DNA of 32,145 bases from an uncultured Gordonibacter sp. (GTDB lineage Bacteria > Actinomycetota > Coriobacteriia > Coriobacteriales > Eggerthellaceae), in NCBI GenBank assembly GCA_904420575.1, contig CAJFVW010000138.1, positions 1 through 32,145 on the forward strand, read 5' to 3'. This document shows, one piece after another, positions 4,454-18,877 of this stretch; position 1 is the first letter of the stretch, and each line of letters starts with the position of its first letter. The notes under the pieces are model-generated. The model did not search any database. It was not told where the DNA came from and saw nothing but the letters and a program-made list of their open reading frames with translations. Both the position numbers and the translations under genes were made by a program.

Positions 4454-4531
4454 GCATATGCGGCGCGGAAGGGCGAATGGAAAAAGGCAAGCATTCTGGC
4501 GACATTCCGTTCATCAGGCACGATGCGTATT

Positions 4532-4560
4532 TCACATCGGCTTTCACATTGCCGATGTGA
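4532..4560 (+). promoter_or_regulatory. Perfect 10-bp dyad upstream of the reductase
   Basis: TCACATCGGC (4532-4541) and its exact reverse complement GCCGATGTGA (4551-4560) flank a 9-nt spacer. TTTCACAT is also present as a direct repeat (4530-4537 and 4542-4549). The dyad lies 90 bp before the reductase start. It could be an operator, perhaps for a LuxR-type regulator such as the one encoded downstream, or an RNA hairpin in the leader. No convincing -35/-10 pair is visible next to it. Confidence 0.45.
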
Positions 4561-4649
4561 TCCCTTTTCGGATTCGGTGGCATAAGGTGTACCCGTTGTG
4601 CGGCGCGCTTGGCCGCACGTGGTATCGGTCTTTTATGCAGGAGGGAACC

Positions 4650-6209
4650 ATGGAGACACAGGTTTCGCGAAGGAGTTTTCTCGCCGGTGCGGGAGCGGCG
4701 GCAGGGCTGGCCGCATTGGGCATGTTCGGATGTGCGCCTAGCAGCGGCGCGGGGGCGGACAAGCCGGCGGCGGACGAAGGGACGTGGGATCAGGAGGCCG
4801 ACATTCTGGTCGTCGGCGCCGGAGGTGCGGGGCTGACCGCCGCCGTCGTAGCGGCGCGTGGCGGCGCGAACGTCGTGGTGCTGGAAGCTGCGGCCATGGC
4901 GGGCGGCAACACGGTGAACTCTTCCGGCGTCATTCAGGCTGCCGGAACGGAAGAGCAGAAGACGCTTGCCGGGGTGACCGACGACACGCCGGAGAAGCAT
5001 GCCGAATACTACCTGCAGTGCGGCGAGGGCCAGCTTGACGAAGATCTGGTGCGCTATGCGTGCGAGCAGGCGCCCTCCTGCATCGAATTCATGAAGGAGC
5101 TGGGAATCTCCTACGAAGTGGTGTATGGGAACGGGCCGGTTCCCAACGTGGACCCCGACCTTGTCAAGCCTCGCATCCATTTGGCGGGCACCGACGAGAA
5201 CGACCTCATGTACGGCCAGGCTCACGTGGCCGCGCTGCTGAAGGCCGCGGAAGACGAAGGCGTGGAGTTCGTGTACGACACGGCTGCCGAGCAGCTGGTC
5301 CAGAATGCCGACGGCGTGGTCACCGGCGTGGTGGCCAGCGACAAAAAGCGCTATCGCGGCAAGAAGGCCGTCATCTTGGCCACGTGCAGCTATGACCGAA
5401 GCGAGGAATTCGCAAAGGCGTTCAACTACCACATGGTGCAGGCTTTGAAAGACGGTCGCGCGCTCACGGCTGTTACGAACACAGGCGACGGCCTGCGCAT
5501 GGGAATGTCGGTCGGCGCGGCGCTCGCCGGCATGGGCGGGTTCATCGGCCTTTCCAACAACATTGGCGGCACGCCCACGCTTCCCGGTGTCCCCGAGGTG
5601 CCCGGCATCCTGGTAAACAAGTACGGCCGCCGCTTCGTCAGCGAGTCCGACCACTATGCGTGGGTGCTCCGTGCCGTCTTCGCGCAGGAAGACCACATCG
5701 CCTGGGGCGTGTTCGACTCGAAGGCCGCAGCGCTTGGCGGCACGGCGGTGGGAGGCGTCAGCCCCATGAGTGAAGACTTCTCGACGGAGATCGCCGACGG
5801 TTCGGTGCTCGTCGCCGATACCATCGAGGAACTTGCCGCCAAGATGGAGGTGCCGGCCGCGAACCTGCAGGCCGCCCTTGACACGTGGAACGCCGACATG
5901 TCTGCGGAGCAGAAGGCGGACAGCCAGTTCCCCACGCGCGTGTGCGGGCTGGAGACCATCGACACCCCGCCGTTCTACGCGACGCGCAGCTACGACTACA
6001 GCCTGGGCGCGCTTGGTGGCCTGAAGATCAACACGAAGGCTCAGGTGCTCGACACCGCGGACACGCCCATTCCTCATCTGTACGCGGCCGGGCAGGTGGC
6101 CGGCGGCTTCATGGGGTCGTATTATCCGGGAACCGGCACCGGCATACTCTCCACGCTCGCGTTCGGGCGCAGCGCGGCGGAAAACGCCTTGCAGGAAACC
6201 GAGGACTAA
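4650..6209 (+). CDS. Tat-exported FAD-dependent reductase of the fumarate reductase / ketosteroid dehydrogenase flavoprotein superfamily
   Basis: A 519-residue flavoprotein. The N-terminus has a twin-arginine signal, SRRSFLAGAG (Arg7, Arg8), a hydrophobic stretch and Cys28 in MFGC, so it may be exported folded and possibly lipid-anchored. The FAD-binding Rossmann motif is DILVVGAGGAGLTAAV (51-66), followed by GGNTVNSSGV. The C-terminus has LYAAGQVAGG and YYPGTGTGILSTLAFGRSAA. The fumarate reductase motif with catalytic His and Arg (GGxHGxxRLGGN type) is not there; the YPGTGTG form is closer to ketosteroid dehydrogenases. No haem CxxCH motifs or FMN domain are seen, so electrons must come from a separate protein. 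Eggerthellaceae carry many such paralogues acting on diverse small molecules; the substrate is unknown. AGGAGGG precedes the ATG at 4650. Confidence 0.85.
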   Translation: METQVSRRSFLAGAGAAAGLAALGMFGCAPSSGAGADKPAADEGTWDQEADILVVGAGGAGLTAAVVAARGGANVVVLEAAAMAGGNTVNSSGVIQAAGTEEQKTLAGVTDDTPEKHAEYYLQCGEGQLDEDLVRYACEQAPSCIEFMKELGISYEVVYGNGPVPNVDPDLVKPRIHLAGTDENDLMYGQAHVAALLKAAEDEGVEFVYDTAAEQLVQNADGVVTGVVASDKKRYRGKKAVILATCSYDRSEEFAKAFNYHMVQALKDGRALTAVTNTGDGLRMGMSVGAALAGMGGFIGLSNNIGGTPTLPGVPEVPGILVNKYGRRFVSESDHYAWVLRAVFAQEDHIAWGVFDSKAAALGGTAVGGVSPMSEDFSTEIADGSVLVADTIEELAAKMEVPAANLQAALDTWNADMSAEQKADSQFPTRVCGLETIDTPPFYATRSYDYSLGALGGLKINTKAQVLDTADTPIPHLYAAGQVAGGFMGSYYPGTGTGILSTLAFGRSAAENALQETED

Positions 6210-6237
6210 GTCCCCAAGGTCCGGCGGACACAGCGGT

Positions 6238-6265
6238 GCGCCCTTCCTCCCGTCGGGAAGGGCGC
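6238..6265. terminator. Hairpin between convergent reductase and LuxR genes
   Basis: GCGCCCTTCC (6238-6247) pairs perfectly with GGAAGGGCGC (6256-6265) around an 8-nt loop, 28 bp after the reductase stop. There is no U-tract; it is a plausible bidirectional terminator. Confidence 0.45.
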
Positions 6266-6349
6266 GCGCTTCGCCTAGCCCGACGCGTCGGCCACTACGG
6301 AGGGGTCGCAGCCAGTTTTCCCCTGTCGGGAAGGGCGCGCGCTTCGCCT
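6252..6349. repeat. 25-bp direct repeat, two exact copies
   Basis: The same 25 bp, beginning GTCGGGAAGGGCGCGC, occur at 6252-6276 and 6325-6349, offset by 73 bp. The first copy forms the right half of the hairpin at 6238-6265. The second ends 2 bp before the stop codon of the LuxR gene. The duplication fills most of the 141-bp gap between two convergent genes. Confidence 0.75.
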
Positions 6350-6350
6350 G

Positions 6351-7859
6351 TCAGGCTTTTGGATCTTGCTTCTCTGAGGCTTCCAACAGGTCGATCAGCT
6401 CTTGCTGGGAATGCACGTCGAGTTTGCGGTAGACGTTCTTCATGTGCGTGCGCGTGGTGTTGTCGGAAATGAAAAGCGTCTTCGATATGTGTTCCCTGTT
6501 GCGTCCCTTTGCCAGAAGCTCGAACACCTGCGTCTCGCGTGCGGACAGCTGGAACCGCTCCGCCAGCCGTTCCAGTTCGGCGCGCGTTTCCGTCAGGCGT
6601 GCGTTCGCAGGCGCGTCCTGCGAGCTTTCCTGCCTTGGCGGAAAGGCGCGCGTCCCCACAGGCGCCGCGCCTTCTTGTCTTTGTTGCTCGCGTCTGGCCG
6701 CCACCTGCCCGCGGTCGAACGAGAGCATGCCGGCCATGAGCAGCAGGTACACGACCACCAGGCACACGATGGCCAGTGACGCGTCGGAATCCGCGACGTT
6801 CGGAGCGATGCCCGACCCCAGCACCGACCCCAGCGACTCTGCACCCACCAGTACCAGCAGCCCCGCAATGAAGCGCGCTGGCAGCTGGGCGCCTTGCGCG
6901 TCGCTTGTCCACAGCGCCCAAACCATGAAGTAGAAGCTGTTGAAGCCCACGATGCATATGGACTGGGCGGCTTCCAGCCCGTCGGAGAACAAGGGCAGCA
7001 TGACGAATGCGACGCCAATGAGGGGAATGGCCACGAAGCAGATGAACTTAATCAGGGCGCGAGAATCGAAGAACAGGGCGGAAACGGCTATGATCAGGGA
7101 AGAAAGGAAGAACGAGGCGACGGTGGCGGCGCTTGCCCCCATGCCGTCTGCGGCATACACGTCGCCAACCAGGCGCTGCATGAGACCGTAAGCCAGTCCG
7201 ACGGCAAGGGGCAGCGCAACGGTGCGCACAACGCCGAACCTGGCAGGACAATGCTGCGGCGCATCGCGGCGCGGCGGCGAGGGCGAAGGGTTCTTTGATG
7301 CAGCGAAAAGGGCGATGCCGACCACGGGCATCAGCGACACCGTCATTGGCTTCAGTGTCGGCGGCAAGACGAGCAGCAAGGCGTCCATCAGCGAGGCGGT
7401 CGCCAGGGCAAGCGCCACGTCGATCAGCAGGATGCGCGGTCCTCGGGAGGCCAGGCTCACGCCGATCAGGGCGAGAAAGCCCCCGCATCCCGCGCCTGCC
7501 AGCACAGACCCCCACATCCTTGCGGCTTCGAAGGGGGCCAGCGCTGGCGCGAATGCGAACAGCAGCGTCCCGACGAACAGCAGCGTCCCGGCCACTGCGG
7601 CGGTTGCGCGCACGTGGCGGAGCAGCGGCCGGGACGCGGCGAGCATGACGAGAAGCGCCACCGCCTCGGTCGCCAGCCACAAGGCCCGCAGATGAAGGAT
7701 GCCGAACTGCGCCCCGGAAGGGTCGTTTGCGAAAGTGTCGCTCCAGTACATCCCGAACATCCAGGTCAGCAGGGTGGCGAACGACAGCCACGAAACGAGG
7801 TCTTCGCGGAATTGCAGCAAAACGATGTTGATGAATGATCGGGCTTCCGGTCGGGTCAT
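6351..7859 (-). CDS. LuxR-family regulator with polytopic membrane domain
   Basis: A 502-residue protein. About twelve hydrophobic segments fill residues 15-375, with a short polar loop near 187-200 dividing them six and six like an MFS fold. A charged linker (about 376-435) leads to a LuxR-type helix-turn-helix at 438-492: LSARETQVFELLAKGRNREH, then ISKTLFISDNTTRTHMKNVY and RKLDVHS. The protein should sit in the membrane and bind DNA from the cytoplasmic side, presumably sensing a small molecule. Genes of this architecture are common in Eggerthella beside reductases they control, so the neighbouring flavoprotein (4650-6209, convergent) or the OYE gene (8436, divergent) are candidate targets. 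AGGGAG lies just before the ATG at 7859; the frame is open to 8114, but that part has no homology. Confidence 0.87.
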   Translation of the reverse strand: MTRPEARSFINIVLLQFREDLVSWLSFATLLTWMFGMYWSDTFANDPSGAQFGILHLRALWLATEAVALLVMLAASRPLLRHVRATAAVAGTLLFVGTLLFAFAPALAPFEAARMWGSVLAGAGCGGFLALIGVSLASRGPRILLIDVALALATASLMDALLLVLPPTLKPMTVSLMPVVGIALFAASKNPSPSPPRRDAPQHCPARFGVVRTVALPLAVGLAYGLMQRLVGDVYAADGMGASAATVASFFLSSLIIAVSALFFDSRALIKFICFVAIPLIGVAFVMLPLFSDGLEAAQSICIVGFNSFYFMVWALWTSDAQGAQLPARFIAGLLVLVGAESLGSVLGSGIAPNVADSDASLAIVCLVVVYLLLMAGMLSFDRGQVAARREQQRQEGAAPVGTRAFPPRQESSQDAPANARLTETRAELERLAERFQLSARETQVFELLAKGRNREHISKTLFISDNTTRTHMKNVYRKLDVHSQQELIDLLEASEKQDPKA

Positions 7860-8435
7860 GCGTCTCCCTACTGTCGCTCGGTGTTCTGCCCGTTCGGCTT
7901 GGCCGGGGCATGCGGCATGGCGGCTGGCGGGCCGCGCTTGCCGTTGCAAGCAGTCTGCAACCGGCATTCCGCGCCCGCCGCTGCGCGCATCGATGCGGCC
8001 TGGCGGCGCATGGCCGGCGGGGCAGGCGTGGCAAGCGTCGGCGTGGCCTGAGGCTTTCTTGGCGGCTTCGCCCAGGGTCGTCGGCTTCCCCAGCAAACGC
8101 GGTGTTGACATCATACCGCATCTGGCCTGCCTGGGTGTGTTGCCGGCTTTTCAGAGGGGGATTTCCCGAGACTTGGCAGCCGGACGCTTTCGAGCGCTTC
8201 TGTGACCCCGCCTCCCTTCGCCGCCGCATTGCCTTTCCTTCCGCATAATTGCACGATGCGGGCAATCGCTTTGTTCTTGCTGTCGGAGCCTGGGTGTTTC
8301 GTCGCTCCCTGACGGCGTGCTGTTCCGTGTGCTGCCTTTGCCATTGGGTTACGTTATCTCCTGCGAAGCGATAGAATGGGCTTCTGAATCGGTAGCGCGG
8401 GCAGTCGAAGAATTGAAATAAAAGCGGGCGCAGAT
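7860..8435. promoter_or_regulatory. 576-bp divergent intergenic region between LuxR and OYE genes
   Basis: No gene is supported here. The region must carry the promoters of both flanking genes. A dyad, GTTGCA (7943-7948) and TGCAAC (7956-7961) with a 7-nt spacer, is the clearest candidate operator. A consensus -35 hexamer TTGACA occurs at 8103-8108, but no matching -10 is found at the right spacing. The end near the OYE gene is AT-richer (8375-8425). Confidence 0.4.
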
Positions 8436-9893
8436 ATGGATGCAAGTGCGAAAGCGGAGGCAGGTAGGGGCATGGGAGAGGAAACGTGCCCGGAAGCGGA
8501 TGCAGGAGAGGGCGTTCGCTCGAGAGCGGAGGCAGGTGTGACAGCGGAAGCGGGAGCGATGGCAGCGGCGGTGGCAACGGAGGCAACGGTGGCAGAAGAG
8601 GCAGCGGAAACAGTGGGGGCAGCAGCAGCGGGAGCGAGCACGCTGTTCGACGGGGTCTCCTTTGGCTCGCTGCGGGCGAAGAATCGCTTCGTCAGGGCGG
8701 CCACGTGGGAAGGCTTGGCGACCGACGAGGGACGCATGACGCCGGAGTTGTTGGAAGTCTATCGGGAGCTGGCAGCGGGCGGCGTGGGCACCATCTTGAC
8801 CGGCTATGCCCACATCGTCGCGGACGAACAGCCCAATCCGCGCATGATGGGCATCTACGATGACAGCTTTGTGGACGAGTACCGCGAACTGGTCGACGTC
8901 GTGCACGAGGCGGGCGCACGCCTCGTCTTGCAGGTGGCGTACGGCGGTTCGGCCACGCGGTTGGATCCTCCCAGCAAGCGCATTCTGGGGCCTTCGGCCG
9001 TGGCGAATCCCAAAACAGGCATCGTGCCGGTTGAGGCGAGCGAGGACGACCTGGCGTCTCTGCGCGACGCCTTCGCTGCTGCCGTCCGCCGTGCACGGGT
9101 GGCCGGGTTCGACGGCGTCGAACTGCATGCTGCCCATGGTTACCTGCTCAGCCAGTTCCTTAGTCCCCGCCTGAACCGCCGCACCGATGCCTACGGTGGC
9201 TCCATCGAGAACCGGGTGCGTTTCCTGGCCGAGGTGGTGGACGCCTGCCGCAACGCGGTAGGGGACCGCTTTCCGCTTCTGGTGAAGTTGAACTGCGCCG
9301 ACGAGCGCCGCGACCTCGATGATGCGGCAGGCGTGGGAGCGCCGTCTGTCTGTACGACCGAGGCGGATGCAGGAGCGTCGGGCGCAAATGCGGCTGCGGG
9401 GGACGCGGCGGCTGCGGCGGATGCCGCGCGCGTGGAGGGCGAGGCCTCGACGGCGGACGTGAGCGCCGCCGCGCCGGCCGCGCCCGCCACAGCCGAGACG
9501 CCGGAGCGCGGCCTCGTGCCCAAGGAAAGCCTCCGGGTGGCGGCTGTGCTGGCGGAACACGGGATCGACGCCATCGAAGTGAGCGGCGACTGGCACGCGT
9601 TCTCCCCAAAGGAATGCGCGGGCGAGCCGTTCTTTGCCTCGTTCGCCGCGCGCCTTGCGCGGCAGGTTCCCGTGCCGGTGATTCTGACCGGCGGGAACCG
9701 TCGCTTCGACGTCATGGAGCGCCTTGCGCGGGAAGACGGCATTGCTGCGTTCGGCCTGTGCCGCCCGCTCGTCTGCGAGCCTGACCTGGTGAACCGTTGG
9801 CAGAAGGACCCGCACGCAGCGCCGCGCTGCCTTTCGTGCAATGGCTGCAACAGCACGCCGGGGCACCGCTGCATCCTGCCGCCACGCAGGTGA
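8436..9893 (+). CDS. Old Yellow Enzyme-family NADH:flavin oxidoreductase with Ala-rich extension and insert
   Basis: A 485-residue frame with an FMN-dependent TIM-barrel ene-reductase core. Recognisable parts are the barrel start STLFDGVSFGSLRAKNRFVR (near 68), the active-site pair in HAAHGYLLSQFLSPRLNRRT, DAYGGSIENRVRF, and the FMN-phosphate region LTGGNRRFD to AFGLCRPLV. A C-terminal CLSCNGC plus a later Cys resembles the iron-sulfur-binding tail of 2,4-dienoyl-CoA reductase relatives, but the following domains are missing. Two parts are unusual: an N-terminal extension of about 65 Ala/Glu-rich residues, and a 65-residue Ala-rich insert (about 292-357) between barrel strands. The true start is uncertain: the ATG at 8436 has no good ribosome site, and in-frame ATGs further in, such as 8472, are possible. 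It reduces an activated C=C bond of an unknown substrate. Confidence 0.8.
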   Translation: MDASAKAEAGRGMGEETCPEADAGEGVRSRAEAGVTAEAGAMAAAVATEATVAEEAAETVGAAAAGASTLFDGVSFGSLRAKNRFVRAATWEGLATDEGRMTPELLEVYRELAAGGVGTILTGYAHIVADEQPNPRMMGIYDDSFVDEYRELVDVVHEAGARLVLQVAYGGSATRLDPPSKRILGPSAVANPKTGIVPVEASEDDLASLRDAFAAAVRRARVAGFDGVELHAAHGYLLSQFLSPRLNRRTDAYGGSIENRVRFLAEVVDACRNAVGDRFPLLVKLNCADERRDLDDAAGVGAPSVCTTEADAGASGANAAAGDAAAAADAARVEGEASTADVSAAAPAAPATAETPERGLVPKESLRVAAVLAEHGIDAIEVSGDWHAFSPKECAGEPFFASFAARLARQVPVPVILTGGNRRFDVMERLAREDGIAAFGLCRPLVCEPDLVNRWQKDPHAAPRCLSCNGCNSTPGHRCILPPRR

Positions 9894-11290: not shown

Positions 11291-12187
11291 CTACGAGTCT
11301 TCCTCCCGAACGTCCCTCCTTCGCGCACATTTCAAAAAGGCGGTGGCAATGGGGCTGGTGCCTTTGGAGCGATAGGCAAGGAACAGCGGCACGGAGAGAG
11401 GAACCGAAAGCTCTACCACGCTTACCCGGCTGCTCGACAAGAACCGGTCGCACATGAAGTCAGGCGCAATGAAGAAGGCGTCCATGTTGCCGACCGTGGT
11501 GGCCACCACTTCGATCTCGTCGACTACGGTGGTTCCCTTCGGCAAGAATCCTGCGGAGAACACCAGCTCGTTCAGCAGGTCCGTGGACTCCTTGATCGTG
11601 TGCACGACCAGCGTCTTGTCGGCAATGTCTTCGGGGACGGCATACCCTCGGACCGCCGCCGGGCAGTCCTTCGGCATCACGAACTTGATGGGGTCTTCGG
11701 CAATGACCTGATACGAAAGAAGCCCCTTGTCCTCCAGGCTTTTCTGCGGCGCGAACCCTATGTCGAGGCGGTTTTCCAACAGGTCGGCCACGATCTCCTG
11801 CGGCTTCTCGGTCTTGTAAGCGATGCTGACGTTCGGGTTCGCCTGCGAGAAGTCGTGGATGCACGGCCCCAGATAGCGATCGATGTCGGCGCCCAGGATG
11901 CCGATGCTCAACTGGCCCGACATGTGGTTCCTGTCGTCATGAGCCTGCATGCAGAAGTCGTCGTACTCGTCGATGATGGAACAGAACGCGCTATATGCCT
12001 TGTGCCCAAGGGGTGTGGGACGGATGCCCGTTGCCGTCCGCATGAAAAGCTGCGAATCGAATTCCTTTTCCAGATTCTGCATATGCTTGCTGAGAACTGA
12101 CTGGGTGATGAACAGCTTTCGCGCGGCATGGCACATGCTGCCTTCATCGACCACGGCGACGAATTCCCGCAAGTATTCTATCTGCAT
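11291..12187 (-). CDS. LysR-family transcriptional regulator
   Basis: A 298-residue regulator. The N-terminal winged helix-turn-helix occupies about 1-60 (MQIEYLREFVAVVDEGSMCH, then AARKLFITQSVLSKHMQNLE). An effector-binding periplasmic-protein-like domain follows (about 88-290), starting QLSIGILGADIDRYLGP. It is divergent from the molybdoenzyme operon with 243 bp between starts, the classic layout for a LysR regulator acting on its neighbour. It is therefore the best candidate to sense the aromatic substrate, which is inference. It could also affect the downstream phosphoglycerate dehydrogenase gene, but that link is weak. A G-rich stretch (six G) lies a few bases before the ATG at 12187. 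Confidence 0.9.
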   Translation of the reverse strand: MQIEYLREFVAVVDEGSMCHAARKLFITQSVLSKHMQNLEKEFDSQLFMRTATGIRPTPLGHKAYSAFCSIIDEYDDFCMQAHDDRNHMSGQLSIGILGADIDRYLGPCIHDFSQANPNVSIAYKTEKPQEIVADLLENRLDIGFAPQKSLEDKGLLSYQVIAEDPIKFVMPKDCPAAVRGYAVPEDIADKTLVVHTIKESTDLLNELVFSAGFLPKGTTVVDEIEVVATTVGNMDAFFIAPDFMCDRFLSSSRVSVVELSVPLSVPLFLAYRSKGTSPIATAFLKCARRRDVREEDS

Positions 12188-12430
12188 AGAACCCCCCGTT
12201 CTTTTCAGAGCAGAAACATGCGTTCGATCAGGCTTTATTCAATTTCAGAAAGCCACACTTGAAAAAATCTGCGCTACCGCGCAAAGCGGTTTAATTCTAG
12301 CATCAAATTGGTTCGAGCGGGACGCCGGTCGAACGTCGTTGTTTGCCGCAAGGCCACAGGCCCTGCGCGCACGCCCTGGGGAAGCACGACCGTCAACAAG
12401 CGCATTCAGGAGCAAAGGGGGTTTCGGTTG
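12188..12430. promoter_or_regulatory. Divergent promoter region between LysR gene and molybdoenzyme operon
   Basis: An AT-richer patch at 12235-12315 contrasts with its surroundings and probably holds both promoters. TTCAA (12238-12242) and TTGAA (12259-12263) form an interrupted dyad, and ACCGC / GCGGT (12276-12290) a second, compact one. The 16-nt gap of the first is longer than a standard LysR T-N11-A box, so it is only a candidate site. No convincing -35/-10 pair was found. Confidence 0.4.
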
Positions 12431-15013
12431 ATGCCAGAAGATAGAACCGTGTACAAATCGACGGGCATGAACGCGTTCGGCATTGGAGCCAATGTGGCCG
12501 AAGTCGACGTGTCGGGCGACAAGATCGTCCGTGTCCGTCCGATGCGCTACGACAAGAAGTATCCCATCGAGCAGTTGAAGCCGTGGACCATCAAGGCGCG
12601 TGGCAGCGAGTTCCATGCAACGTTGAAGGCGCTGCTGCCTCCGTACGCCTATGCGTACAAGAAGCGCGTGTACTCCGACCACCGCATCCTTCACCCGTAC
12701 AAGCGCGTCGACTGGGACCCGCAGGGAGACCGCCATCCAGAAAACCGCGGCAAATCGAAGTACGTGCAGATCACCTGGGACGAGGCGGCTCAGACAATCG
12801 CCGACGAAATCATGCGTGTGAAGGAGACCTACGGCCTGCCGTCCATCCTCATCCAAGGAGACGGCCACGGCGAGACCAAGGTGGTCCATGCATCCCACGG
12901 ATGCGCCACGCGCCTCATGAACCTGTTGGGAGACGACTGGACGTACCAGGCACGCCAGCCAGACAGCTGGGAAGGCTGGTACTGGGGCGCGAAGCACATG
13001 TGGGGCCAAGATCCTCTGGGCCAGTTCGACATGGGCAACCTGCTGCTCGACATTGCCGAGAACAGCGACATGCTGCTGTTCATGGGCTGCGACATGGAAA
13101 CCACGCCTTGGGGCTGGCAGGGCCAGATACCCAGCCAATACTGCTTCTGGCTGACCGAAATAGGCGTCAAGCAGGTCTATATCTGCCCCGATGTGAATTA
13201 CGGCGCGGCGGTCCATGCCGACAAATGGATTCCCGTGTACCCGAACACCGACGCCGCGCTGATGGCGGCGGTGGCTTACGTGTGGATGACCGAAGAGCTG
13301 TACGATCGAGACTACGTGGATACCCATTCGGTCGGTTTCGACTGGTTCGAGTACTACATATTGGGCAAGGAAGATGGCCAGCCGAAAACGCCTGAATGGG
13401 CCTCGCCCATCTGCGGAGTCCCTTCGCGCCAGATCAAGGCCCTTGCGCATCAGTGGGCCAAGCAGCGCACGAGCGTCGCGCATGGCAACGGAGGCTCGTT
13501 CATCCGTTCCACCTATTCCCACGAGCCCGCGCGCTTCGAGGTTGCGCTGATGACCATGATGGGGCTGGGCAAGCCGGGACGCAACGTGGTCAAGTTCATC
13601 GAATGGTACATGTACGGGCTTCCTTCCCAGCAGCCGGCTCCCTGCTATTCCAGCAACATGACGGTGGGTGCCGCCTACCGGGGATGGGACTTCGTGCAGA
13701 CCAAGTCGTCCATCACGAAAACGCTGGTGCCGGAAGCCATCTTGGGAAACTACGACGACGACCACCCGCTTACGTGGCAGGGATACACCGTGGCTGGATG
13801 GCCGCGCGAAGACCAGTTCAACACGTACCGGTATCCCATCGAGGGCGCGCAGGGAATCCATATGATCTGGACCGACACGCCTTGCTGGACCACGTGTTGG
13901 AACGGCGGCAACAAGATGATCGAGGCTCTTAGTTCGGAGCGGCTCGAGTGCGTGGTCGCCCAGCAGCCCTGGATGGAGAACGATTGCCTGTTCGCCGACA
14001 TCCTGCTGCCCATCAACACCAAGTACGAAGAAGAGGACATCGGGCAAGACAACGGCGCCGCGCCGTTCGGGCTCATCTACCACGAAGAGCAGGCGGTGCC
14101 TGCGCGGGGCGAGTCCAAGAGCGACTGGGAAGCCGTGGGCGAGGTGGCCAGGAAGCTCGGCCTGTACGACGCGTACGTCGAAGGCAAGGACGTGCAGGCT
14201 TGGATAAAGACGGGCTTCGAGGGTGCGGAGAAGCCCGAAGACGTGCCGTACGAGGACTTCCTGGAAAAGGGCTACTACATAGCGCCGACCCGCGACGACT
14301 GGGAAGAGCTGCCGCGCGGTTTCGAGCTGTTCTGCAACGATCCGGAAGGCCATCCGCTGTCCACGCCCACCGGGCTTGTCGAGTTCTACGCGACGGGCCT
14401 GGCGGAACATTTCCCTGACGACGACGAGCGTCCTCCCGTTCCCCATTACATTCCGTTCGGCAAGCGTCATCAGGAAAGCCTGCAGTGCGACCGAGCGAAG
14501 GACTACCCCTATCTTCTGGTGTCGAACCATCCGCGCTGGCGCATCCATGCCAACATGGACGACATTTCGTGGCTGCGAGAGATTCCCACCTGCAAGGTGA
14601 CCGGCCCGGACGGCTACAAGTACGAGCCGTTGTGGATCAACCCGGCAGACGCCAAGGGGTTGGGCCTCGAAAGCGGCGACATCGCCAAGCTCTACAACGA
14701 CCGTGGCTGGGTTCTGGGCGGCGTCATCGTGACCGAGCGCATCCGTCCTGGCGTGGTCTATCAGGACCATGGCGCGCAGCTCGATCCCATCGAGCCAGGC
14801 GTTTCCGACCGCGGCGGGGCGAACAACCTCATTGCCCCGACGAAGACGACGTCCCAGAACGCGCCCGGCGAAGTGACGAGCGGCTTTTTGGTCGGCGTCG
14901 AAAAGGTCGACGTGTTCCTGCTGGCGGAGCAGTACCCGGAGGCGTTCGGACGTCCCTACGATCCGCACAACGGCGTCAAGATGCACAACTGGATTCAGGA
15001 GGAATGCGAATGA
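12431..15013 (+). CDS. Molybdopterin oxidoreductase large subunit, pyrogallol transhydroxylase / catechol dehydroxylase type
   Basis: An 860-residue catalytic subunit expected to bind bis-MGD molybdenum. It lacks both a Tat signal and the N-terminal cysteine motif for a 4Fe-4S cluster, so it should be cytoplasmic and depend on the small subunit for iron-sulfur centres. Both traits fit pyrogallol-phloroglucinol transhydroxylase (AthL) of Pelobacter. From memory of that protein the match is close at ITWDEA, PDSWEGWYWG and KHMWG. The active-site His, Asp and molybdenum-ligand Ser (144, 174, 175 there) appear to correspond to His146, Asp178 and Ser179 here. Gut Eggerthellaceae use relatives to remove hydroxyl groups from catechols. 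The reaction could be transhydroxylation or reductive dehydroxylation of a polyphenol; sequence alone cannot decide. AAAGGGGG precedes the ATG at 12431; the stop overlaps the next start (ATGA). Confidence 0.85.
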   Translation: MPEDRTVYKSTGMNAFGIGANVAEVDVSGDKIVRVRPMRYDKKYPIEQLKPWTIKARGSEFHATLKALLPPYAYAYKKRVYSDHRILHPYKRVDWDPQGDRHPENRGKSKYVQITWDEAAQTIADEIMRVKETYGLPSILIQGDGHGETKVVHASHGCATRLMNLLGDDWTYQARQPDSWEGWYWGAKHMWGQDPLGQFDMGNLLLDIAENSDMLLFMGCDMETTPWGWQGQIPSQYCFWLTEIGVKQVYICPDVNYGAAVHADKWIPVYPNTDAALMAAVAYVWMTEELYDRDYVDTHSVGFDWFEYYILGKEDGQPKTPEWASPICGVPSRQIKALAHQWAKQRTSVAHGNGGSFIRSTYSHEPARFEVALMTMMGLGKPGRNVVKFIEWYMYGLPSQQPAPCYSSNMTVGAAYRGWDFVQTKSSITKTLVPEAILGNYDDDHPLTWQGYTVAGWPREDQFNTYRYPIEGAQGIHMIWTDTPCWTTCWNGGNKMIEALSSERLECVVAQQPWMENDCLFADILLPINTKYEEEDIGQDNGAAPFGLIYHEEQAVPARGESKSDWEAVGEVARKLGLYDAYVEGKDVQAWIKTGFEGAEKPEDVPYEDFLEKGYYIAPTRDDWEELPRGFELFCNDPEGHPLSTPTGLVEFYATGLAEHFPDDDERPPVPHYIPFGKRHQESLQCDRAKDYPYLLVSNHPRWRIHANMDDISWLREIPTCKVTGPDGYKYEPLWINPADAKGLGLESGDIAKLYNDRGWVLGGVIVTERIRPGVVYQDHGAQLDPIEPGVSDRGGANNLIAPTKTTSQNAPGEVTSGFLVGVEKVDVFLLAEQYPEAFGRPYDPHNGVKMHNWIQEECE

Positions 15014-15816
15014 AAGCTTTCGTCGTCGACTTGGGAAAATGCAACGGCTGCTACGCGTGCCAGCTGGCGTGCAAGGACGAAACGGTGGGAAACGAGTGGC
15101 CTCCGTATTCGAAGCCGCAGCCTGACACCGGGCAGTTCTGGCTCAAGATGTTCGAGAAGACCCATGGGCAGGTTCCGAAGGTGCGGGTGGAGTACCGGCC
15201 CCAGCTGTGCCGCCATTGCGGCAACGCGCCCTGCATGGACGCCGCGCCCGACGCCGTGTACCGCCGCGAGGACGGCCTGGTCATCATCGACCCCGCGAAG
15301 GCGGCGGGGCATTCGGAACTGGTGGACGCCTGTCCCTATGGCGCCATCTACTGGAACGACGACCTGGGCCTTCCACAAAAGTGCACGGGGTGCGCGCATC
15401 TTGTGGATGCGGGGGCGCTGCCCCACTGCGTGGACGCGTGTGCGACCGGCGCGCTGCAGTTCGGCGAAGAAGAGGACCTTGCCGACCTTGTTGCCCAGGC
15501 GACCGACGAGTACGACGTCGAAGGGACCGCTTCGCGGGTCCACTACCTGAACCCCTTCGGCCTGTTCGTGTCAGGCGAGGTGTGGAGCAAGGAAGACGAC
15601 CTGATCATCGAAGGGGCGCAGGTCACGCTCCGCGATTCCGAAGGGTCGGCGAGATCTGCCGAGACCGACGGGTTCGGGGATTTCTGGTTCAAGCATCTGA
15701 AGCCGGGCCGGTACGTTCTCTCCATCGAGGCCGAAGGCTTCGCAGGCGTCGGCGAACGTGCAATAGACCTCAAGGAGAGCCTGAACCTGGGCGATTTCCC
15801 GCTCGACAAGCGGTAG
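15010..15816 (+). CDS. Iron-sulfur small subunit with C-terminal Ig-like domain, transhydroxylase type
   Basis: A 268-residue electron-transfer partner of the preceding subunit. The N-terminal two thirds hold cysteine clusters: CNGCYACQLAC (11-21), CRHCGNAPC, CPYG and CTGCAHLVDAGALPHCVDAC. The second group lacks its fourth cysteine, so three 4Fe-4S clusters are expected rather than four, as in the Pelobacter transhydroxylase small subunit. The segment REDGLVIIDPAKA to VDACPYGAIYWND is very like that protein. The last 80 residues (FVSGEVWSKEDDLIIEGAQV, then LKPGRYVLSIEAEGF) form a carboxypeptidase-regulatory-like beta-sandwich, a hallmark of this subunit type and absent from DmsB. AGGAGG lies 7 nt before the ATG at 15010, which overlaps the previous stop; an ATG at 15004 is less well spaced. 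Confidence 0.88.
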   Translation: MKAFVVDLGKCNGCYACQLACKDETVGNEWPPYSKPQPDTGQFWLKMFEKTHGQVPKVRVEYRPQLCRHCGNAPCMDAAPDAVYRREDGLVIIDPAKAAGHSELVDACPYGAIYWNDDLGLPQKCTGCAHLVDAGALPHCVDACATGALQFGEEEDLADLVAQATDEYDVEGTASRVHYLNPFGLFVSGEVWSKEDDLIIEGAQVTLRDSEGSARSAETDGFGDFWFKHLKPGRYVLSIEAEGFAGVGERAIDLKESLNLGDFPLDKR

Positions 15817-15843
15817 AGCTGCCATCACACAAGGAGGAGCATC

Positions 15844-17091
15844 ATGGTTCAGAACGAAATCAAATTGAACAGCAGCCGCAGCTGGATGCAGTTCATCATC
15901 GTCTTTCTGGTGGGCATCACCATTGCGTCGGGCATGTTCAAGGTGCCCGTCAACATGCCGAACATCATGGAGTTCTACGGCGTGCCCATTTCCTCGGCCG
16001 GCCTGCTGATGTCGGTGGTAGGCTTCACCTGCATCTTCACGGCCCTTCCTGCCGGCGCCATCATGCAGAAGATAGGCGCGAAGAAGTTCGGCATCGTCGT
16101 CATTGCGTCGGCGATCATCGAAAACGTGGTCGGCGCGGCCGCTCCCACGTTCGAAGTGCTGCTGGCCACCCGGTTCCTCGAAGGCATTTCCTACGGCTGC
16201 ATGTCCATGGTGAGCGTTGCCATCATCACGGCCAACTTCACCTCGGACAAGCGCGGCCTGCCGAACGGCATCTGGGTGATCTGGGTGTCGCTGGCCCAGC
16301 TGGTGGTCGCGCAGCTGGCAAACCTCGTGGTTCCTTCGTTCGGATGGCAGGGCGAATGGATTGCCATCGGCATACTGCAGGCCATCATGCTGGTGTTCTT
16401 CGTCGCGTTCGTCAAGAACCCGCCCATGCCCGAAGCGAAGGAAGAAGCCTCGTCGGAAAAGAAGCAGTCCATCCTCGAGGGCTTGAAGGAGCCTGCCGTG
16501 TGGCTCATCTCCTTCTCCTGCCTGTTCCTGGCCGTGGGCTGCGGGTGCTTCACCGGCCTGTACCCGACGTATCTGCAGCAGGGGATAGGGTTCGACCCTG
16601 CCACCGCCAACAACATCATCTCGCTTTCCACCATAGGCGGCATCGTCGGCTCGCTGGCCGTGGGCTGGGTCATCAACAAGACGGCGGTGCGCAACCGCGG
16701 CATCCTGCTGGCCGTCGTGTGCGGCATCGCCATGGCGTGCTTCGCCATGCAGTTCCGCATGCCGTTCAATTTCGCGCTGGTGGCGCTTTTCGCCGCCGTG
16801 TACAGTGGCGTGACGCAGTTCAACATGCCCATCGCGTTCGCCATGGTTCCCGATGCCCTGAAGCGTCCCGAACTGCTTTCCATGGGCCTTGGCGTGCTCA
16901 TGATCGGCGCCAATGCGGGCGGCGCATTGTCCACCTTCCTGCCCGCGATGGTGGTGGAGAACGCTGGCGGCGTGTGGGCTGCCACCGACCTCATGGTCAT
17001 TGGCTTTGCCGTGCTGGCGTTGCTGTGCGCGGTTGGCGCCACGGCGTATCAGCGGCGGTGCGTTCTGAAGGAAGCCAAGAAAGAGGATTAG
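15844..17091 (+). CDS. Major facilitator superfamily transporter (first of two)
   Basis: A 415-residue membrane protein with about twelve transmembrane segments and a central cytoplasmic loop rich in Lys/Glu (about 198-215, PPMPEAKEEASSEKKQ). The segment-2/3 loop has GAIMQKIGAKKFG, a form of the MFS signature. It is probably an importer of the aromatic substrate or exporter of the product; anaerobic catechol-metabolising operons often include MFS genes. It is 27 bp after the small subunit, with AAGGAGGAG before the ATG. It is not a recent duplicate of the second transporter: the two sequences differ throughout. Confidence 0.88.
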   Translation: MVQNEIKLNSSRSWMQFIIVFLVGITIASGMFKVPVNMPNIMEFYGVPISSAGLLMSVVGFTCIFTALPAGAIMQKIGAKKFGIVVIASAIIENVVGAAAPTFEVLLATRFLEGISYGCMSMVSVAIITANFTSDKRGLPNGIWVIWVSLAQLVVAQLANLVVPSFGWQGEWIAIGILQAIMLVFFVAFVKNPPMPEAKEEASSEKKQSILEGLKEPAVWLISFSCLFLAVGCGCFTGLYPTYLQQGIGFDPATANNIISLSTIGGIVGSLAVGWVINKTAVRNRGILLAVVCGIAMACFAMQFRMPFNFALVALFAAVYSGVTQFNMPIAFAMVPDALKRPELLSMGLGVLMIGANAGGALSTFLPAMVVENAGGVWAATDLMVIGFAVLALLCAVGATAYQRRCVLKEAKKED

Positions 17092-17135
17092 GCGATAGGC
17101 CGGCCTCTGCTCCAGGCACGGTGCGATTTCCCGGC

Positions 17136-17263
17136 GCCCGCCGTGCGCGGCGTCGGGCCGCCGCCTGCTGGCCTCGCACGGCGGGCAGGTGCTGGGCAAC
17201 TGCGCATGACGGACATCGGGCAACCGTCTGTTGATCGCGCAAGGCGGTTGCCGGGCAATCGCC
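17136..17263 (+). promoter_or_regulatory. Structured spacer between the two transporter genes
   Basis: Two strong inverted repeats fill most of the 197-bp gap. GCCCGCCGTGCG (17136-17147) pairs exactly with CGCACGGCGGGC (17175-17186). GGCAACCG (17219-17226) pairs exactly with CGGTTGCC (17245-17252). The right arm of the second can instead pair forward: GGCGGTTG (17243-17250) with CAATCGCC (17256-17263), one G-U pair, loop CCGGG. The two pairings exclude each other, as in attenuators. The last hairpin ends 25 nt before the second transporter start. There is no U-tract. Roles in termination, mRNA processing or translation control are possible. Confidence 0.5.
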
Positions 17264-17288
17264 GGCCAATCCGAATGAAGTGGGAGCT

Positions 17289-18497
17289 ATGAAAAAAGAC
17301 TACACGGAAATGAACCCCTATGTTTTGGCGATTCCCGTGCTTGCCATTGGATTGCAGGATTCCGCTTCTGCGTGCATTTCGCCTGCGATCGCTTCCATAG
17401 CGGCATCGTATCCAGACGTTGCGGTTTCCACGGTGCAGCTTCTGGTCACGCTTCCCAGCATAGCGGTTTGCATCGTTTCTATTCTGTACGGCTGGCTTTC
17501 TGTGAGGATCAACCCTCGGACGCTTGTCGTCATAGGCCTGAGCCTGTTCGTGATAGGCGGCATGGCCCCCCTGTTCGTCACCTCGTTCGACGGCATACTG
17601 GCCTGTCGGGTGATCCTGGGCATGGGGGCGGGGTTGACGCTTCCCGCCTGCGACTCCATCATCCCGCGCCTTTACAAAGGCAGGATGCGGGAGAACATGA
17701 TGGGCTGGAACATGACCGCCGGCGCCATAGGCGTGACCGTGATGATATTCATCGGGGGTCAGCTGGCGGCCGTAGACTGGCACCTCAGTTTCCTTGGCTA
17801 CAGCGTGGGGCTCGTATCGCTGATCCTCGTGCTGTGCCTGCTGCCGCGCATTCCCATGGTGAAAAGCGAGAAGGACGGCAATAGGCCGGCCCTTTCCGAG
17901 GTCGTGACGAACATAAAATGGTTGGCCTGGGTGGAAATCATCGTGTACTTCGTGGGCAACCTGTTCGCGACCATGGTCACGTCGAACCTGTCGTTGTTCG
18001 TGGAAGGCGGCGGCATCGGCACGCCGGCAGATTCCGGGAATGCCCTTTCGTTGCAGATGGCAGGGGCGGCGCTGGGCGCCTTCGGATACGGGTGGCTGAA
18101 GAAGAACCTCGGCCACAACGTCATCCCGCTTGCTTGGTTGGTGATGGGTGCCGGGTTCCTGGTGGTGGCCCACAGTTCTTCGCTTGTCGCCGTCATGGCA
18201 GGCATGTTCGTGGCGGGCATGGGCGTAGGCGTCGTATGGCCTGCATACTGCATGCGCGTCACCGAGCTGACCAAGCCGGTTGCGCAGGCCATGGCAATCG
18301 CCGTGGCCGGGGCGCTGCAGGGCTTCGGCAACTTCTTCAATCCGGTGGTGGGCGGCTGGCTTGCCGGCCTGTTCGGCATCGGGTACGGCGCGGACATGAT
18401 CCGACTGGACTCATGGGTGATCGTCGCGATTGCCGTCGTCGTTTTCCTGGCAGGAACGTTTGGCGTGAGACGCGCCAAACAGAGAGTGAAAGGATGA
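17289..18497 (+). CDS. Major facilitator superfamily transporter (second of two)
   Basis: A 402-residue protein with about twelve transmembrane segments. The segment-2/3 loop reads LYGWLSVRINPRTLVVIG and segment 4 has RVILGMGAGLTLPACDSII, both usual for sugar- and drug-type MFS carriers. The start region is uncertain: ATG 17289 is preceded by GGGAG only 2 nt away, and a GTG at 17280 is in frame. It belongs to the molybdoenzyme operon but is set apart by the structured 197-bp spacer, which may make its level differ from the first transporter. Substrate import and product export by separate carriers is one reading of having two. Confidence 0.87.
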   Translation: MKKDYTEMNPYVLAIPVLAIGLQDSASACISPAIASIAASYPDVAVSTVQLLVTLPSIAVCIVSILYGWLSVRINPRTLVVIGLSLFVIGGMAPLFVTSFDGILACRVILGMGAGLTLPACDSIIPRLYKGRMRENMMGWNMTAGAIGVTVMIFIGGQLAAVDWHLSFLGYSVGLVSLILVLCLLPRIPMVKSEKDGNRPALSEVVTNIKWLAWVEIIVYFVGNLFATMVTSNLSLFVEGGGIGTPADSGNALSLQMAGAALGAFGYGWLKKNLGHNVIPLAWLVMGAGFLVVAHSSSLVAVMAGMFVAGMGVGVVWPAYCMRVTELTKPVAQAMAIAVAGALQGFGNFFNPVVGGWLAGLFGIGYGADMIRLDSWVIVAIAVVVFLAGTFGVRRAKQRVKG

Positions 18498-18877
18498 ACG
18501 TCATGTGTTTTAGACCACCGACCGCAACGCAGGGAGAGGGCAAGGAAGGCGCGGGTGCGCCTCCTGTTCCTGGGGCGCCCCGTGCGCCACAAGCGCCGGG
18601 GGTGCCTGGGGCCCCAAAGGTCCCCGGAGTGCCTGGGGCACCAAGAGTTCCGCAGGTGCCCGGTGCTTCGGCAGCTGACGCACCCGAGGTGTTGGGAGGG
18701 CCGGAAGCCTTTCAGGTCACCGGCGACGTTGCCGCAGCCCAGCAGCAGGAGGCGTCGGAGGGCGCCGCAGAGTTCATGGGCGACGCGCCCGGAGCGGCCG
18801 TCCAGTCGTGCGTTCCCACCATCAAGGCGAAGACCGAGCAGAAGAAGGTGGTGTTCGTCCCGCCTGCGCCCAAATAG
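18494..18877 (+). CDS. Small Pro/Gly/Ala-rich protein of unknown function, last gene of the molybdoenzyme operon
   Basis: A 127-residue frame whose ATG overlaps the stop of the second transporter (ATGA), with AAAGGATG forming the ribosome site. The start MNVMCFRPPTATQ is followed by a repetitive stretch at about residues 22-58 built from PGAP, PGVP and VPQVPG units, also visible in the DNA as repeated GTGCCTGGGGC. A less biased middle (EAFQVTGDVAAAQQQEASEG) and a basic end (IKAKTEQKKVVFVPPAPK) follow. It has two cysteines, no signal peptide and no membrane segment. The coupling to the transporter and the terminator right after it argue that it is a real gene. I do not recognise a family; the Pro-rich part may be a flexible linker or an interaction surface. 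Confidence 0.65.
   Translation: MNVMCFRPPTATQGEGKEGAGAPPVPGAPRAPQAPGVPGAPKVPGVPGAPRVPQVPGASAADAPEVLGGPEAFQVTGDVAAAQQQEASEGAAEFMGDAPGAAVQSCVPTIKAKTEQKKVVFVPPAPK

Follow-up and report, generated by a model that had tools for sequence, protein, structure and literature searches.

A conserved AthL-like molybdoenzyme unit in an uncultured Gordonibacter sp. and its possible role in aromatic hydroxyl metabolism

Gene content of the locus

The window analysed here is a stretch of 32,145 nucleotides (contig CAJFVW010000138.1, positions 1 to 32,145, forward strand) from an uncultured Gordonibacter sp., and represents contig 138 of the 245 contigs in the 2.96 Mb source assembly (GCA_904420575.1). The host belongs to the Eggerthellaceae, the family that also includes Ellagibacter and Raoultibacter. 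The window carries a unit of five genes built around a two-subunit molybdoenzyme, designated L (large) and S (small), the closest characterised relative of which is pyrogallol-phloroglucinol transhydroxylase (AthLS) of Pelobacter acidigallici. The features of the unit are as follows (MFS, major facilitator superfamily; bis-MGD, bis(molybdopterin guanine dinucleotide); ORF, open reading frame).

11291..12187, minus strand: LysR-family regulator, 298 aa (Pfam HTH_1 and LysR_substrate), divergent from the operon
12311..12334, no strand assigned: 24-bp inverted repeat GTTCGAGCGG-GACG-CCGGTCGAAC in the LysR-L intergenic region, a candidate operator only
12431..15013, plus strand: L, predicted catalytic bis-MGD large subunit of the AthL-sister clade, 860 aa (Pfam Molybdopterin, Molydop_binding and AhtL-like_1st)
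15010..15816, plus strand: S, predicted electron-transfer small subunit of AthS type, 268 aa, with 12 Cys and a C-terminal beta domain
15844..17091, plus strand: MFS1 transporter (Pfam), 415 aa, with orthologues beside L in two further genera
17289..18497, plus strand: MFS2 transporter, 402 aa; the best start is ATG at 17289, while the mechanical ORF begins with GTG at 17280

All five genes were checked via translation, and all have a coding-like G+C content at third codon positions (GC3, 0.78–0.87). The LysR gene lies 243 bp upstream of L, the S start and the L stop overlap by 4 bases, and gaps of 27 bp and 197 bp separate S from MFS1 and MFS1 from MFS2. The two transporters show no detectable kinship by BLASTP (E 0.03). 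Together with the Pfam matches, these data uphold the layout proposed in an earlier sequence-only reading of this DNA, i.e. an operon with a divergent LysR gene and two unrelated MFS carriers. The span given there (12431–18877) needs adjustment, for although the genes within it are real, its end takes in a short Pro/Ala/Val-rich ORF with PGAPxVP repeats (18494–18877), which directly follows MFS2 and is not counted in the unit, and its start omits the LysR gene described in the same text. A Gly/Ala/Pro-rich ORF was also seen near a large-small subunit (LS) pair of Ellagibacter (L081:7838–8332).

The dyad at 12311–12334 was spotted post hoc. It occurs once in the window against an expectation of 0.04, and has no counterpart in the two orthologous loci (Raoultibacter timonensis and genome G081, see below). 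A scan for sigma-70 promoters gave two matches in all, none of them upstream of L.

Conservation of the unit

A family-wide search of 138 Eggerthellaceae genomes recovered two close orthologues of L, one in R. timonensis Marseille-P3277 (83% identity, at C1:1245582–1248146) and the other in a third genus, represented by G081 (81%). In R. timonensis the five genes occur in order on a single strand (LysR 43%, L 83%, S 73%, MFS1 72%, MFS2 74%), with LysR on the same strand as the operon, unlike the divergent LysR of the window and of G081. In the latter, LysR (33%) is followed by L (81%), S (70%) and MFS1 (55%), while the place of MFS2 is taken by another MFS gene (25%). Since the gene order recurs in both genomes while the outer flanks differ, LysR-L-S-MFS1-MFS2 is a conserved module, of which the orientation of LysR and the identity of MFS2 are the less conserved parts. 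This recurrence, in full in R. timonensis and for LysR-L-S-MFS1 in the third genus, bears out the proposal that the module is self-contained. No ring-cleavage, beta-oxidation-like or other catabolic gene was seen with the unit in the three genera, and the substrate, as already stated in the earlier reading, is not obvious from the module.

Family placement of L and S

By sequence, the top PDB match of L is AthL (E 3.4e-121, about 35% identity), followed at some distance by the best DMSO (dimethyl sulfoxide) reductase (E 3.5e-67) and by acetylene hydratase (5e-15). An AlphaFold model of L (mean pLDDT 85.8) also has AthL as its top fold match (Foldseek E 4.6e-74; Z 37.9, root-mean-square deviation 2.2 over 796 residues), but its margin over enzymes of the DMSO-reductase type is so small (about 1 in Z) that the two are nearly level, and the placement of L is therefore carried by the tree, the sequence and the active-site residues. 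In an IQ-TREE phylogeny of 36 rows, L, its relatives and AthL formed a group at 100/100 that contained no other bis-MGD enzyme, and the next branch below this family was a DMSO-reductase-like enzyme from the same genome as L (L003). A tree of 97 rows set the 94 window-clade members apart, with a support of 100, from AthL and two proteobacterial relatives encoded on plasmids; these two, about 50% identical to AthL, came from a plasmid search and served as controls. L scores 34.3 bits against the AthL-like first domain (PF21423; cut-off 27 bits), and is under the curated cut-offs of the S/N-oxide reductase profiles bisC_fam, dmsA and torA (324.8 vs 1017 bits for TIGR00509, 304 vs 778 for TIGR02166, and 268 vs 1465 for TIGR02164).

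L almost certainly belongs to the RhL/PgtL (AthL-like) family, and its assignment to the AthL type, and not to the DMSO-reductase type, stands on the PDB sequence match, the fold match and the tree. The translation also agrees with the original description of L as a protein that keeps the segment PDSWEGWYWG but is without a Tat (twin-arginine translocation) signal and an N-terminal iron-sulfur (Fe-S) motif, as there is no RR pair within the first 60 residues and the first Cys is at residue 158.

The best PDB match of S is AthS (E 8.7e-52), with 12 of 12 cluster cysteines in register (residues 11, 14, 17, 21, 67, 70, 75, 108, 125, 128, 140 and 144), a set that is compatible with three [4Fe-4S] clusters. 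The C-terminal beta domain is present as well (CarboxypepD_reg match), so that S can be confirmed as an AthS-type subunit with three cluster motifs.

Active site of L

AthL residues were taken from the alignment of the PDB match, and eleven active-site residues described in the literature agree with the AthL numbering. His146, Asp178 and Ser179 of L, which the sequence-only reading had listed by these numbers, align with AthL His144, Asp174 and Ser175 and are invariant in 95 of 95 homologues, and Trp176 of AthL is kept in 90 of the 95. In an HMMER alignment, the positions of Asp144 and His146 of L are occupied by Tyr and Trp in DMSO reductase. Elsewhere L departs from AthL. Tyr152 and Arg153 are replaced by Ala and Ser, Cys557 corresponds to Ala543 in both alignments made, the segment carrying Tyr404 is missing in all 95 homologues, and Tyr560, which aligned with Phe546 in the earlier alignment, falls in a gap in the more careful one. 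In AthL, Tyr404 and Tyr560 reportedly bind the substrate (Messerschmidt 2004). Because the two AthL relatives of about 50% identity retain both segments, the absence of these loops marks the window clade and is not noise; since the loops are missing, L is, judged from its sequence, not an AthL orthologue but a member of a deep sister clade. Those pocket positions that can be aligned to AthL are identical in the window, R. timonensis and G081, except for F357, which is Tyr in G081.

Relation to catechol dehydroxylases

The sequence-only reading had regarded gut enzymes that dehydroxylate catechols as kin of L, within a single transhydroxylase/dehydroxylase clade. The ellagic-acid (eam) cluster was found in Gordonibacter sp. 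28C, Ellagibacter and G. pamelaeae (L156, L157, L158) via its amidohydrolase and neighbours, that is, from published gene content and not by sequence look-up. Its molybdoenzyme (about 800 aa), standing here for the gut catechol dehydroxylases (Cdh), falls among other Cdh-type proteins in a clade supported at 100/99, apart from L, to which it is 23–24% identical. Only part of the proposed relationship is therefore retained: L groups with AthL, but the eam enzyme lies in a separate clade, and there are two clades instead of one. Gordonibacter-type catechol dehydroxylases were accordingly rejected as members of the L family, the eam enzyme being Cdh-type in all three genomes. This agrees with Maini Rekdal 2020 (PMC7028382), where catechol dehydroxylases are neighbours of acetylene hydratase and are placed away from Pht/AthL. 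Across twelve Cdh-type proteins (including the three eam-cluster enzymes; five published queries are not in the set) identity to L is 22–26%, and a published criterion for Cdh is >30% identity to a characterised Cdh (PMC11585353).

In organization the two groups are alike, as Cdh are also cytoplasmic two-subunit bis-MGD enzymes of gut Eggerthellaceae, with adjoining MFS genes, a local regulator and many paralogues per genome. Their cytoplasmic location, MFS linkage and abundance in Gordonibacter have been reported (PMC12771579, PMC11887054), G. urolithinfaciens having served as a host for Cdh in the second of these studies; the adjoining MFS genes are thought to encode substrate importers, and the products are found in the culture medium (PMC12771579). 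Over the first half of MFS1, identity to an MFS of the G. pamelaeae eam cluster is about 30%. Cdh-type proteins differ from LS in their size (about 730–830 aa, with an Fe-S partner of 110–117 aa), and L062, the one that was Pfam-scanned, has an N-terminal Fe4S4 domain, unlike L.

In several genomes, which belong to different phyla, a Cdh-type gene with its Fe-S partner is the neighbour of an AthL-like LS pair (L062:2095–4702, L067:7090–9663, L094:18536–21178, L185, L187). Of 57 loci, 15 have a Cdh-type gene no more than 6 kb away from LS, a figure that is not used as evidence because it carries no chance test, the genomes are Cdh-rich and some loci are from the same genome. A protein of 511–516 aa with similar N-termini occurs both in the eam cluster and beside an LS pair (L185:12068–13615; L156:14686–16218; L158:2855–4387), and is possibly an accessory step common to both; for the copy in L185, Pfam gave no match.

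Spread of the L clade

At E ≤ 1e-200 the L clade is represented in 44 of the 138 Eggerthellaceae genomes. Matches at E ≤ 1e-50 number 14 in R. timonensis (two partial), 9 in the genome carrying the window (8 genes, several of them truncated at contig ends) and 8 in G096 (some genes split over two rows). By these sequence counts the clade is expanded in the Eggerthellaceae, with up to about 12–14 copies. Matches to the AthL-like first domain were absent from G004 and G006, both Eggerthellaceae, and from 14 of 14 control genomes. Named relatives occur in Clostridia, Dehalococcoidia, Desulfobacterota and others, and there is an earlier report of annotated pyrogallol hydroxytransferases from Dehalococcoidia (PMC4959651). 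The genome of the window has 63 matches to the molybdopterin oxidoreductase family (PF00384) in its 2.96 Mb, some being gene fragments or cut by contig ends.

Proposed function

L probably acts on a hydroxylated aromatic. The interpretation preferred here, with a probability of about 0.5, is that the unit forms a substrate-inducible cytoplasmic module for import of an aromatic, a change at its hydroxyl groups, and export. MFS1 and/or MFS2 would import a polyhydroxylated aromatic, which LysR, to judge from its position, would sense, switching on L-S-MFS1-MFS2. L would bind Mo-bis-MGD through Ser179 and hold a ring hydroxyl with His146 and Asp178, as in AthL, and S would connect the active site to cytoplasmic electron carriers via three [4Fe-4S] clusters. 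The hydroxyl would be removed reductively, serving as an electron sink, and the product exported by the second MFS carrier, so that, in function, the unit would parallel the Gordonibacter-type catechol dehydroxylase clusters while using an AthL-sister enzyme. Reductive dehydroxylation with export is favoured because the unit is free of accompanying catabolic genes in three genera, because there are two carriers, and because the family uses aromatics as electron acceptors, for which gut Eggerthellaceae are better known (PMC7028382); as the net reaction, reductive dehydroxylation is given somewhat less than an even chance.

Further points in favour of the module as a whole are the AthL placement of L, the invariant His146, Asp178 and Ser179, the AthS-type cysteines of S, the gene order shared with R. 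timonensis and G081, the likeness of MFS1 to an MFS from the eam cluster, and the MFS-linked layout of cytoplasmic Cdh. Several points weigh against this interpretation. A literature search found no member of the L clade with tested activity; import, product export and substrate induction are all inferred; and the regulators of Cdh are usually LuxR-type, not LysR (PMC12771579, PMC11585353). In addition, the direction of the reaction does not follow from family membership, given that AthL is net redox-neutral and its relative RhL hydroxylates oxidatively (PMC10100899), and since these characterised enzymes carry them out, oxidative hydroxylation and transhydroxylation stay as rivals.

An oxidative ring hydroxylase like resorcinol hydroxylase RhL, taking the hydroxyl from water and passing electrons out through S, is unlikely. 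RhL and AthL (PgtL) do share one RhL/PgtL family, with a Ser ligand and a cytoplasmic location (PMC10100899), but the ring-cleavage or beta-oxidation-like genes are not seen in the unit in any of the three genera, and the known use of aromatics as electron acceptors by gut Eggerthellaceae (PMC7028382) points the other way. Less likely again is a genuine transhydroxylase, which would shift a hydroxyl from one phenol to another, as from pyrogallol to phloroglucinol, and leave the net redox state unchanged. In its favour, no characterised enzyme is nearer than AthL, and the AthL Ser/Asp/His site and AthS-type subunit are retained; against this, the window clade is without the Tyr404/Tyr560 loops that the two AthL relatives of about 50% identity have kept, Tyr152 and Arg153 have become Ala and Ser, and the unit has no recognised gene of phloroglucinol catabolism. 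The position of L003 as the next branch below the AthL family, the many paralogues and the variable pocket positions would suit a reductase of some other oxygen-bearing compound (S-/N-oxide or non-aromatic) that is AthL-like by ancestry only. This is improbable, as Asp144 and His146 replace the Tyr/Trp of DMSO reductase, all 95 homologues keep His146 and Asp178, and scores are far under the S/N-oxide reductase cut-offs. That the LS pair alone is the unit, with MFS and LysR neighbours by chance, is very unlikely: most paralogous LS pairs are without these genes and a 197-bp gap precedes MFS2, but the four operon genes and LysR keep their order in R. timonensis, and LysR-L-S-MFS1 in G081, between differing outer flanks.

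Comparison with known systems

The unit can be set beside three further described systems. AthLS (PgtL; PDB 4v4c) shares with LS the fold, the Ser ligand of Mo with Asp/His, the absence of an N-terminal Fe-S cluster, the cytoplasmic location and, in AthS, the 12 Cys and beta domain. The window LS is only about 35% identical to it, is without the Tyr404/Tyr560 loops, has Ala/Ser for Tyr152/Arg153 and, unlike AthLS, has its own LysR and two MFS genes. RhLS (PMC10100899), compared by its published description only, has a Ser ligand, is cytoplasmic and acts on phenols, but has a respiratory role with resorcinol as electron donor. The reductases of DMSO and trimethylamine N-oxide (DorA, TorA, MtsZ) resemble L in their Ser-ligated bis-MGD fold without an N-terminal cluster; their Tyr/Trp pair is Asp/His in L, which also differs in having an Fe-S partner subunit and no Tat signal.

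The fate of many dietary polyphenols is set by gut Eggerthellaceae, and published work has centred on one molybdenum-enzyme branch. The L clade is a second branch with a similar layout (cytoplasmic, transporter-linked, many paralogues), and the interest of the find rests on the size of this AthL-sister clade in gut bacteria. It may tentatively be suggested, with the odds rather against it, that gut Eggerthellaceae have in this clade another class of aromatic dehydroxylases, of separate evolutionary origin, in which a genome may hold up to about twelve paralogues that differ in substrate, and which would fall outside Cdh surveys with a 30% identity cut-off to Cdh queries. As the five-gene unit is present in cultured R. 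timonensis, a search for the substrate by induction is practical.

Other features of the window

Upstream of the unit, the region 4458–9893 carries genes for a FAD_binding_2 oxidoreductase (4458–6209, plus strand), a LuxR-type GerE regulator (6351–8114, minus strand) and an FMN oxidoreductase of the old yellow enzyme family (8436–9893, plus strand), and is a possible second substrate-reduction unit. Catechol dehydroxylases are linked to membrane regulators of the LuxR type (cf. 6351–8114). At the contig edge, nt 2–406 appear to encode the end of a Cdh-type Fe-S subunit (about 45% identity; Pfam Fer4_11 below cut-off), the catalytic partner gene of which would lie beyond the contig.

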